Virus record (IMG/VR): IMGVR_UViG_3300031707_000071
Span: 1-38,307 of that record
Source of the DNA: a virus
Direction: 5' to 3' (one strand)
Length of the DNA: 38,307 bases
Shown: piece by piece, positions 563-38,307 of the stretch
Numbering within the stretch: position 1 is the first letter of the stretch
How the letters are laid out: each line of letters begins with the position of its first letter
Made by a program: the position numbers and the translations under genes
Notes under the pieces: model-generated
Database searches by the model: none
Told to the model about the DNA's origin: nothing
What the model saw: only the letters and a program-made list of their open reading frames with translations

Positions 563-1050
563 AGTCATGAGCAGGTGATGGCGCGCGCGGCTTGGCATGA
601 CCGCGAATCACTGCGAAAGTGTGATTCTGAATCCTCCGCTCATCGATGAGTGAGTGACAGGATTCACTTGGCGCATCGCCTCAGTACCGCTGGCTTCATG
701 CCAGCGAAGGCGATTGAGGATAGTGTAACCTCTAATGGGCTTGTAGTGATAATGGGAGCATGCCACTTTTGCAAGGTGCGAGGTAAGAGTTCGACTCTCT
801 TCAAGTCCACTATGGTGTGCGGCGTGAAAGGAACACGTGGACTAACTGGCTACAGCCACAAGTCGCAGGCGCATCCGAAAGGAATGTCTTGCGATCCAGT
901 TTATAAGATATGTGGTAAATCCGGTGCAATTCCTGACACACCATATGACTGGAGCGGAGATAAGTGAATAAAGGGAACTAACATCTCCGTCATGGTAAAC
1001 CCTAATACCTGCCAGTCAACAACACCGCTCGAAAGGGCGGTGTTTGCGTT
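563..1050 (+). ncRNA. Large structured RNA candidate containing a tRNA-Ala
   Basis: The region is packed with strong helices in order: 586-590/601-605; 605-611/621-627; 629-635/659-665 enclosing the CTCAT-CG-ATGAG hairpin at 639-650; 675-681/708-714 enclosing a 7-bp helix 688-694/700-706; the tRNA at 737-809; a 9-bp closing helix 811-819/937-945; 946-952/1012-1018 enclosing 955-961/983-989; and an 8-bp hairpin 1021-1028/1037-1044 that could end the RNA. Most are perfectly paired, which is far more than expected for coding DNA. The one long open frame inside (650-967) looks accidental. Large ornate phage RNAs such as GOLLD and ROOL are known to lie beside tRNA genes; whether this belongs to one of them cannot be told without a covariance search. 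Exact ends are uncertain. Confidence 0.65.
737..809 (+). tRNA. tRNA-Ala (anticodon UGC)
   Basis: A complete 73-nt cloverleaf can be laid out. The acceptor GGGCTTG (737-743) pairs with CAAGTCC (802-808), with one G-U, and A809 is the discriminator. The D arm is 746-761 with loop TAATGGGA. The anticodon loop TTTGCAA (768-774) gives anticodon TGC. The variable loop is 5 nt. The T arm AAGAG/CTCTT has the canonical loop TTCGACT (790-796). CCA is not encoded. The D stem (GTGA/GCAT) is weak and pair 27-43 is C-C, so the molecule has diverged from host tRNAs. It sits inside a larger structured RNA, which suggests co-transcription and processing. Confidence 0.8.
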
Positions 1051-6589: not shown

Positions 6590-7344
6590 TGGCTCGTGGT
6601 AGATTTATCGAAAAAAAGATTTGCATTGATAAGACAGTAAATGACCTTAGCTGTTTTGAATCCATGCTTGGGTTCACATGGCTAATAGCACACCTTGACT
6701 GCGAGGGTAGAACTTATGGCGATCCGGCTGTGGTTAGGTCATTTGTATTTCCCCGGCGCAACGATATTTCAATAGAACAGATGGAAAGTTTTATTAAAGA
6801 ATGGCATGATGCTGGATTGATTGTCTGGTATGAAGTTGACGGGGATAAATATATTTACTTCCCAAAATTCAAAAATTATCAAGTTGGATTGAATCCAGAA
6901 AGAGAAGCAAAGTCAGTAATACCTACTCATGAGCGGGTCAGGAATAAATCAGGAGTAGGTCAAGAGCAAATCCCTGTTAACGTTAAGGTTAAGGGTAAAG
7001 TGTTAAGTGATAAGGGTGAAGTTGAAGTTAAGGGCGAAAAACACGACAACAACCCGCAAAATCAACTTCTAAAAACATTCTCTGAGCATACAAAGCTGGA
7101 TTATGGCGCTGACGCTGAAAAGATAGCATTAGAACTAATACAAAAAGGCGTTATCCAGTCCGACATTGTCAATGCGATCAATTTCCTGAATAGTAAACCT
7201 GAATATAAATGCGTGTCTTTTAAGTCAATTCGTGCGCCTGCATTAATCGAAATGGAACGCAGGAAAAATAGTAAAAAGAAATCTGATCCAGAAGATCACC
7301 GCCGTTATCTCAAAGGCGAATATGGCGAATTTGGAAATCATTAG
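6589..7344 (+). CDS. Replication initiator / DnaD-like replisome protein
   Basis: The N-terminal 100 residues (MARGRFIEKKICIDKTVNDL, then SFVFPRRNDISIEQMESFIKEWHDAGLIVWYEVDGDKYIYFPKF) match the winged-helix domain of phage replisome organizers, which bind the origin. A linker rich in Lys and Val follows (residues 110-150). The C-terminal part (KVIALELIQKGVI-like helices to about residue 225) resembles a DnaD-type helical domain that engages the host helicase loader. No helicase gene is seen in the window, so the phage likely recruits the host replisome. The origin may lie inside this gene, but no iterons are obvious. Confidence 0.65.
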   Translation: MARGRFIEKKICIDKTVNDLSCFESMLGFTWLIAHLDCEGRTYGDPAVVRSFVFPRRNDISIEQMESFIKEWHDAGLIVWYEVDGDKYIYFPKFKNYQVGLNPEREAKSVIPTHERVRNKSGVGQEQIPVNVKVKGKVLSDKGEVEVKGEKHDNNPQNQLLKTFSEHTKLDYGADAEKIALELIQKGVIQSDIVNAINFLNSKPEYKCVSFKSIRAPALIEMERRKNSKKKSDPEDHRRYLKGEYGEFGNH

Positions 7345-7354
7345 GAGGCAGGAA

Positions 7355-7693
7355 ATGAAAATAATTTATATTGCAGGTAAATATTTTGGTAAGGCAGACC
7401 ATGACATTCTCGTCAATATCCAAGTTGCCCGAAATGAAGCCGAATTTGTTTGGTCGCAAGGCGGGTGTGCATTATGTCCTCACCTCAATTCGGCATGGAT
7501 GAGTGGATTGTGTCCAGAAAAAAACTTTTTAGAGGGTGATCTGGAATTGATAAAACGCTGTGATGCGATTTATACCTGCTGGAATTGGCAAGATAGTAAA
7601 GGAGCAACGGCGGAGGTACAACTGGCGCATGAACTTGGGATTCCGGTGTTACATAATCGCGTGGATGTAATGAAATATTTGGAATCTAAATGA
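7355..7693 (+). CDS. Nucleoside 2-deoxyribosyltransferase-like protein
   Basis: Start at ATG 7355, which has GGAGGC 6 bp upstream. The 112-residue product is a Rossmann-like fold. It shows MKIIYIAGKY at the N terminus, a helix with NIQVARNEAEFVW, then GDLELIKRCDAIYTCWNW at 61-78 and SKGATAEVQLAHELGIPV, where Glu87 sits at the position of the catalytic glutamate in this superfamily. Relatives include DUF4406 proteins found in phages. It may cleave nucleoside or nucleotide N-glycosidic bonds and so affect nucleotide pools or base modification; activity is inferred. Confidence 0.75.
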   Translation: MKIIYIAGKYFGKADHDILVNIQVARNEAEFVWSQGGCALCPHLNSAWMSGLCPEKNFLEGDLELIKRCDAIYTCWNWQDSKGATAEVQLAHELGIPVLHNRVDVMKYLESK

Positions 7694-7974
7694 CCCCCTC
7701 CTACGATTATGACAAATGCGTGGAAATGGTCTGTTATCTGCTCGGCAAGGCGGTCGAGTATTCACGCGGAGAAGGCATGTCCGATTATGTCAGCCCGGAT
7801 GACAACTGGACATTCAACCAGGAGGTGTCGGAATGTCAGAATTTTGTGAGGGGCGCCATGTTTGAATTTTACTGTGATCTATTGGGCGCAGGTGAGTATT
7901 CAATAAGTGCAATCCGGGACTATTCGCAGGTTGAACTGGACTGGTGGCAGCCAAAACTAATAGGAGTGGTGTGA
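7690..7974 (+). CDS. Hypothetical acidic protein
   Basis: The 94-residue protein overlaps its neighbours by 4 bp on both sides. It is acidic and helical with aromatic residues (YDYDKCVEMVCYLLGKAVEY and VELDWWQPKL) and shows no motif that I recognise. Its position between the deoxyribosyltransferase-like protein and the methyltransferase may be a hint of a shared DNA-modification or anti-restriction role, but nothing in the sequence proves this. Confidence 0.55.
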   Translation: MTPSYDYDKCVEMVCYLLGKAVEYSRGEGMSDYVSPDDNWTFNQEVSECQNFVRGAMFEFYCDLLGAGEYSISAIRDYSQVELDWWQPKLIGVV

Positions 7975-8804
7975 GCGAAGTCAAATTAATACTCGGCGAC
8001 TGTCTCGAAGTGATGAAGTCTATCCCTGATAAATCGGTGGATGCTGTGATAACTGACCCGCCATACGGGATAGGGATTGCAGAATGGGATTTCGTTGATG
8101 TTAAAAGCATTGTTCTTGAATGTAATCGTATAACGAAAGATTATTTTTGCTTTTTTGGTCAATTCCCCTATGTTTTGGAATGGGTTAATAATTCACAAAA
8201 ATCATTTAATTTTAGAGAATCTATTGCTTGGGTGAAAAGGTTGGTCGGTGTTGGTTTTAACTTATCGCGCGGGAAAGAGGAAATATTTATTTATGGAAAA
8301 TCGCATGATAAGTTTTATCAAGTAAAAGGTAAATATGAGGATGTAAAAGTACCTGGAATTCTTTTCGATATTTCTACTATTGATGGAATAAAAAGGCATT
8401 TATCTGATATGCGGCACGAAATGAAAACGGGGAAAAAAGGAATAATCAGTCAGACGGATTCTCAATTTTGTAGATATAAAGATTGTCCAGGGAGAGAGCG
8501 TTCCCCTGAACTTGTGAACTATACAAATGTATGGTCATTTTTACCACCCTCGAGATTAAATGCTGGCAGAAAAGAATTTAATCATCTAACTGAAAAACCA
8601 GTTGAGGTTATGAAGCGACTTATTGAAATGACGACATTGCCAGAAATGATGGTACTTGACCCCTTCATGGGTTCAGGCACAACCGGCGTGGCTTGCGTGC
8701 AGACTGGAAGGAACTTTATCGGCATAGAGATTGACCCGAAATACTTTGCTATTGCCGAAAAGAGAATCAAGGACGCTCAGCAACAAATGAGGTTGGAATT
8801 ATGA
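7971..8804 (+). CDS. DNA methyltransferase, beta class (N4-C or N6-A)
   Basis: I choose the GTG at 7971 (AGGAG 4 bp upstream, overlapping the previous stop as GTGA); from there the protein reads VSEVKLILGDCLEVMKSIPD, the typical beginning of this family. The catalytic motif IV TDPPYGIG lies at residues 28-35 and the SAM-binding motif I LDPFMGSGTTG at 229-239, then IGIEIDPKYF. That order is the beta arrangement of exocyclic amino methyltransferases. No restriction endonuclease gene adjoins, so it is an orphan enzyme, probably shielding phage DNA from host restriction. Recognition sequence unknown. The middle (residues 140-195) is the target-recognition region. Confidence 0.9.
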   Translation: MSEVKLILGDCLEVMKSIPDKSVDAVITDPPYGIGIAEWDFVDVKSIVLECNRITKDYFCFFGQFPYVLEWVNNSQKSFNFRESIAWVKRLVGVGFNLSRGKEEIFIYGKSHDKFYQVKGKYEDVKVPGILFDISTIDGIKRHLSDMRHEMKTGKKGIISQTDSQFCRYKDCPGRERSPELVNYTNVWSFLPPSRLNAGRKEFNHLTEKPVEVMKRLIEMTTLPEMMVLDPFMGSGTTGVACVQTGRNFIGIEIDPKYFAIAEKRIKDAQQQMRLEL

Positions 8805-37955: not shown

Positions 37956-37970
37956 AATAATATCAGAGTA

Positions 37971-38052
37971 ACGACAGATTTGAACAATAGAAGGCGGACT
38001 TTCGGGTCAGCAACAGATTAGAGTCTGCGGGATCCTTCGTTCAGAATGTCGT
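37971..38052 (+). ncRNA. Nested stem structure, RNA candidate
   Basis: Four helices nest perfectly: ACGACA (37971-37976) with TGTCGT (38047-38052); TGAAC (37981-37985) with GTTCA (38039-38043); GAAGG (37990-37994) with CCTTC (38034-38038); and CGGACT (37995-38000) with AGTCTG (38022-38027, one G-U). The result is one long arm with internal loops, closed by a 21-nt loop. No open frame fits. It resembles a folded small RNA or the leader of one. Confidence 0.6.
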
Positions 38053-38064
38053 AATTTTATCATT

Positions 38065-38110
38065 ATAAGAGGGCATACATAGGGTTAATCCGATTGTTAC
38101 TCCCTCTTAT
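38065..38110 (+). ncRNA. 9-bp hairpin, second arm of right-end RNA
   Basis: ATAAGAGGG (38065-38073) pairs with CCCTCTTAT (38102-38110) over 9 bp, with a 28-nt loop. It follows the nested arm by 12 nt and is followed at once by another strong hairpin, so the three may be one molecule. Confidence 0.55.
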
Positions 38111-38112
38111 CT

Positions 38113-38168
38113 GACCGCTCCTGTAAAGTGTACTCGGGTTCATACTCGACAGCGATACAGGGGCGGTC
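38113..38168 (+). terminator. 13-bp hairpin, late terminator or third RNA arm
   Basis: GACCGCTCCTGTA (38113-38125) pairs with TACAGGGGCGGTC (38156-38168) over 13 bp, the only imperfect pair being a U-G that needs plus-strand transcription. The 30-nt loop contains ACTCG twice. The bases after it, TTGATTT, are partly U-rich, so it may end late transcripts or the structured RNA. Confidence 0.55.
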
Positions 38169-38195: not shown

Positions 38196-38307
38196 ATGGA
38201 GAAGAATAATATTCCAATTAATTCTAAATATAGTTTATTGGTTGAATCATTACCAATTGAAGTATTTTTAACGGATGAAGGGTATTGTGCAGTTTATGAA
38301 CCATTAG
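38196..38307 (+). CDS. HicB-like protein, start of the gene (cut at the right edge)
   Basis: ATG at 38196 begins MEKNNIPINSKYSLLVESLP and runs to the window end in the frame that continues at base 128 of the left end. It is the natural 5' end of the gene seen at 1-279. The context (extended -10, no ribosome site) suggests a leaderless message. See the left copy for the fold. Confidence 0.7.
   Translation, partial: MEKNNIPINSKYSLLVESLPIEVFLTDEGYCAVYEPL
38207..38307. repeat. Right copy of 101-bp terminal direct repeat
   Basis: Identical to 27-127. The repeat ends exactly at the window end and starts 11 bp into the HicB-like gene, so joining the ends gives one intact gene of about 87 codons. 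Confidence 0.9.

Follow-up and report, generated by a model that had tools for sequence, protein, structure and literature searches.

A structured region around a tRNA-Ala, in the longest stretch of a phage genome without genes, is a candidate noncoding RNA with a GOLLD-like plan

The stretch of DNA analysed here (the window) is the complete 38,307-base IMG/VR record IMGVR_UViG_3300031707_000071. Because positions 27-127 recur exactly at 38207-38307, the genome most probably closes into a circle of about 38.2 kb, and the record would then begin with 26 stray bases ahead of this 101-base overlap. The gene content is that of a phage and includes genes for terminase, portal and head proteins, a holin, an endolysin, an Erf-like annealing protein, a DNA methyltransferase and a CI-like repressor, and no integrase was seen among the approximately 40 phage proteins scanned. 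Positions 280-1178 hold no accepted gene and form the largest gene-free region of the phage genome. Both a ribbon-helix-helix gene and the repressor gene adjoin this region, the latter an immunity-like HTH_3 gene on the minus strand (1620-1997), in agreement with a preliminary description of this DNA that had placed a large structured RNA beside a phage immunity region. A perfect, operator-like 26-base palindrome (1431-1456) lies near the repressor gene and upstream of the minus-strand gene at 1179-1397.

Within the gene-free region, the preliminary description had recognised a complete tRNA-Ala with anticodon UGC, and both ARAGORN and the Rfam tRNA model (RF00005, 45.1 bits) call this tRNA at 737-810 on the plus strand. 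The G3:U70 pair is the main alanine identity element of tRNA, and the acceptor stem, which is intact, carries this pair together with A73 when read from the sequence; cloverleaf and UGC anticodon likewise agree with an alanine tRNA of the RF00005 family. CCA is not encoded, and ARAGORN finds no other tRNA in the window. BLASTN shows the tRNA body to be about 76% identical to tRNA-Ala genes of phage tRNA arrays, among them those of Rhizobium phage RHph_TM30, which has the same anticodon, and Pseudomonas phage Pyxpy01. In those arrays, however, the tRNA-Ala gene stands among other tRNAs and genes, and the sequences that flank it have no similarity to the flanks in the window.

The 488 nucleotides from 563 to 1050 fold with a predicted free energy of -182 kcal/mol (z -4.1 on the plus strand and -3.8 on the minus strand) and, on both strands, rank at the top of 77 tiled 488-nt genome windows for structure (z about -4.3). 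This excess of structure does not come from the tRNA, since the two flanks without it give a z of -4.9 on the plus strand and the tRNA alone gives -0.9. On the 5' side, the plus-strand domain 563-736 folded alone forms hairpins at 605-627, 628-666, 675-714 and 716-732 with helix probabilities of 0.83-0.99, except for 675-681/708-714 (0.56); its z is -3.3 on the plus and -3.5 on the minus strand, so that the plus strand is not favoured. The 3' domain, also on the plus strand, has two parts. The first (811-945, z -2.8, helix probabilities 0.58-0.98) is closed by a 9-bp helix 811-819/937-945 (probability 0.98), inside which lie hairpins 822-838 and 862-895 and the nested helices 839-841/931-933, 845-849/921-925 and 855-860/911-916. 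The second (946-1018, helix probabilities 0.91-0.98, z -4.0 on the plus versus -2.2 on the minus strand) consists of a 7-bp helix 946-952/1012-1018 around hairpins 954-990 and 994-1009, whose loops may touch through a possible AGGG (972-975)/CCCU (1000-1003) contact picked out by eye. With the terminator-like hairpin that follows it, the 3' part reaches a z of -5.0 on the plus versus -2.9 on the minus strand. Thus the 9-bp closing helix, the nested helices and the upstream hairpins of the preliminary description are all present. Its further statement that nearly every segment takes part in a strong helix is right for the domains when each is folded by itself, but not for 563-1050 folded in one piece, where many 5' helices drop to probabilities of 0.3-0.6 and rival each other and the arms of the tRNA; because of these competitors the detailed 5' structure given above is tentative.

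The boundary 563-1050 of the preliminary description does enclose structured sequence, but the structured region is larger: a domain at 303-495 had been missed, and it folds even more significantly. In this AT-rich, plus-strand domain a closing helix of 14 bp (303-316/482-495), three of its pairs being G-U, surrounds internal branches. The segment 300-500 has a z of -7.5 on the plus versus -3.8 on the minus strand, and in a genome-wide scan of 200-nt segments the lowest z, -8.4, was found on the plus strand at 301-500. No Rfam family reaches its cut-off in this domain, which could stand as an RNA of its own or could be the real 5' domain of the tRNA-bearing RNA. When 280-1050 is folded jointly, a 12-bp long-range helix with one bulge (285-297/590-601 on the plus strand, spanning 285-601; probability 0.92-0.97) ties the two together with a gain of about 10 kcal/mol. 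Since 9-13% of shuffles pair as well, this duplex is not significant, and for that reason we do not claim that 303-495 and 563-1050 form one RNA. A rough estimate for 284-1050 (20 shuffles per strand, mixed base composition) gives a z of -9.2 on the plus versus -5.1 on the minus strand, and the unit may span about 285-1050, joined by a helix that is itself not significant.

The ends of a transcript can be placed only approximately. The start at 563 in the preliminary description probably reflects the TATAAT at 551-556 on the plus strand, which we read as a candidate -10 box; it has no good -35 and was not picked up by the promoter scan, which scored no promoter just before 563. Between the 303-495 domain and 563 the scan picked up no terminator on the plus strand and a single weak promoter match, at 482-509. 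At the other end, positions 1021-1050 on the plus strand hold a terminator-like 10-bp hairpin (1021-1044) with a GAAA loop and a weak U tract, which a simple terminator scan did not flag; near-identical counterparts of this hairpin scored in three bacterial genomes. By prediction, transcription of the structured region is likely. The preliminary description had taken the product to be RNA and not protein, naming protein-like conservation of the frame 650-967 as the finding that would speak against it. That frame has a codon score of -0.03, where the 20 larger phage genes score +0.08 to +0.23; it yielded no protein relatives and runs through the tRNA, and a protein-coding gene at 650-967 was therefore rejected. 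That a real tRNA lies within a significantly structured noncoding region is, in sum, well supported.

We compared the region with all 4227 Rfam families (cmscan at E<=10 on 400-1200 and E<=3 on the whole window). The novelty put forward in the preliminary description would be lost to a match with an already described family, and on 400-1200 no family other than tRNA was credible at E<=10. Matches to RNAI, FMN and STnc410 lie far below their cut-offs and are put down to chance. The preliminary description had also suggested a divergent member of the GOLLD or ROOL class, and nothing of the kind is detectable with the Rfam models: GOLLD (RF02032) matched neither in the two cmscan runs (E<=10 for 400-1200, E<=3 for the window) nor in a dedicated family search, although its model does work on a bacterial genome from the class to which Micromonospora belongs (L271), where it scores 144.5 bits, just below the Rfam cut-off of 150. 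The same two runs gave no match to ROOL. A group II intron was rejected, as group-II-D1D4-1 (RF01998) has no match in the window. A tmRNA, which would share the alanine identity pair G3:U70 and the large structured RNA, was rejected as well, because the cloverleaf is complete with its anticodon arm, its halves are contiguous and ARAGORN reports no tmRNA.

GOLLD RNAs have a variable 5' region and a conserved 3' region, with a linker that sometimes carries tRNAs; they assemble into a multimeric cage, and their expression rises at lysis (PMC12286853). In L271 a tRNA (1568-1640, typed by ARAGORN as SeC, TCA) lies in the linker of a GOLLD RNA (1501-1953). An embedded tRNA is therefore not unprecedented, and the rarity that the preliminary description had ascribed to an intact tRNA within a large ornate RNA has to be given up. 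The RNA in the window and GOLLD both occur in phages or prophages and share the order 5' part, tRNA-capable linker and 3' multi-helix part; here the tRNA at 737-810 sits between structured 563-736 and structured 811-1018. Compared by eye, both 3' parts have a closing helix of 9-10 bp followed by a helix around two hairpins. They differ in that the GOLLD model has 416 positions whereas the 3' part in the window, at about 235 nt, has little over half that length, and GOLLD consensus motifs (e.g. GUAAUCUCA) are not seen in the window RNA. ROOL, too, is a large ornate phage or prophage RNA, and it is often found near tRNA islands (PMC12286853), whereas the phage in the window has only one tRNA.

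No relative of the RNA came from BLASTN, from covariance models, from five scans of viral contigs for sequence patterns or from about 780 bacterial genomes; these searches used exact words, BLASTN and single-sequence models, by which diverged relatives could be missed. Among phage and plasmid records BLASTN returned only tRNA similarity or chance matches to the region, and the tRNA is the only portion of it with relatives. Exact and stem-relaxed DNA patterns gave 1, 0, 61 and 55 matches in viral contigs, all of which failed when checked with a covariance model, with BLASTN or for tRNAs. Covariance models, each built from one sequence, 811-1050 (R1) or 303-495 (R2), gave no convincing match in about 2.4 Mb and about 2.0 Mb of loci, respectively. 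In 47 records and 780 genomes of two phyla, chosen as a guess at the host, R1 gave three weak genome matches that consist of terminator hairpins only. Neighbours reached in viral contigs through the Erf, terminase and tail genes were relatives that lack the RNA, or there were none; phage relatives with 57-66% terminase identity had no RNA match in contigs that are mostly incomplete. The closest relative (L039/G001, 21 kb, 98% terminase identity) does not cover the RNA region, and in genome contigs the terminase family is represented by six distant prophage-like loci with no clear host. With no sequence relative found, the predicted RNA is best regarded as an orphan, a promising candidate that falls short of a proven new class.

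The explanation that we tentatively favour, and to which we would give somewhat less than an even chance, is that of a phage structured noncoding RNA with two domains and a tRNA linker that would work like a tRNA-bearing GOLLD without being a detectable member of that class. It draws on the tRNA itself, the significant folding of its two flanks, the lack of a coding signal and the GOLLD precedent. A plus-strand transcript would run through the largest gene-free region of the circular genome, from a structured domain at the 5' end (563-736, or perhaps beginning near 285) through the tRNA linker (737-810) to the compact 3' domain (811-1018), with the hairpin at 1021-1044 behind it. The two domains would fold as a stable scaffold, perhaps a self-assembling one, and the linker tRNA might be displayed or enclosed, or else excised by RNase P and 3' processing enzymes and then given its CCA. 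We infer each of these steps, namely the single transcript, its expression in the lytic phase, assembly and the fate of the tRNA, and GOLLD-like working is a leading guess only, because the likeness was judged by eye and the 3' part is so much shorter than the GOLLD model. Against this explanation we count the missing relatives, the Rfam result outside the tRNA, the strand-neutral folding of 563-736, the lack of a scored promoter before 563 and the weak U tract of the terminator.

The main rival holds that this is an ordinary phage tRNA-Ala gene from whose transcript the tRNA is excised; the structured leader and trailer would be left over after protecting or pacing the precursor and would have no role as a large RNA. 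The likeness of the tRNA body to array genes, the existence of relatives for the tRNA part alone and the intact acceptor stem all speak for such a gene, but both flanks are long and significantly folded, the 3' trailer, about 240 nt long and closed by a helix of its own, far exceeds what a trailer needs, and there is no second tRNA in the window; we consider it somewhat unlikely. It is a rather less probable proposition that 285-1050 represents a new phage RNA class of about 765 nt, unrelated to GOLLD and ROOL, in which a scaffold with one alanine tRNA in its linker has evolved independently.

How far the unit extends bears on a third alternative, according to which an AT-rich structured RNA at about 303-495 is followed by a separate tRNA-bearing transcript, 563-1050. 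The upstream domain is closed on its own, the TATAAT lies in between and the joining helix is not significant, all as might be expected of two RNAs; the intervening plus strand, however, offers only the weak promoter match and no terminator, and the joint fold is better by its 10 kcal/mol, and we judge two RNAs to be quite unlikely. Strand preference bears in turn on the idea that the locus acts at the level of DNA, for instance as an origin of replication, a partition site or an operator, with inverted repeats that mimic RNA helices and a tRNA gene inside. Such an element would agree with the equal folding of 563-736 on both strands and with a place in the longest stretch without genes that the circular genome has, beside repressor and ribbon-helix-helix genes. 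It is nevertheless improbable, since 303-495 and the 3' part both favour the plus strand, the helix that closes 303-495 includes G-U pairs, and the helices are nested and multi-branched where simple palindromes or iterons would be looked for.

The tRNAs in GOLLD linkers are among the few hints as to the cargo or function of the hollow cages into which GOLLD and ROOL RNAs assemble (PMC12286853). tRNAs inside giant phage RNAs are already known, and the folds here stand without homologue support. An unrelated phage RNA built on the same plan would suggest that tRNA carriage belongs to the function and that the tRNA is not a passenger; an RNA of about 490 nt would also offer a smaller working model.

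Two other parts of the genome deserve mention. At 7322-8804 a nucleoside 2-deoxyribosyltransferase-like (DUF4406) gene lies close to a DNA methyltransferase gene, perhaps for DNA modification. In addition, a DUF3800-VII RNA (RF02967) is found on the plus strand at 37970-38058 with a score of 39.1 bits, which exceeds the gathering score, and behind it come two strong hairpins, at 38065-38110 and at 38113-38168, immediately ahead of a small ORF across the circle junction.
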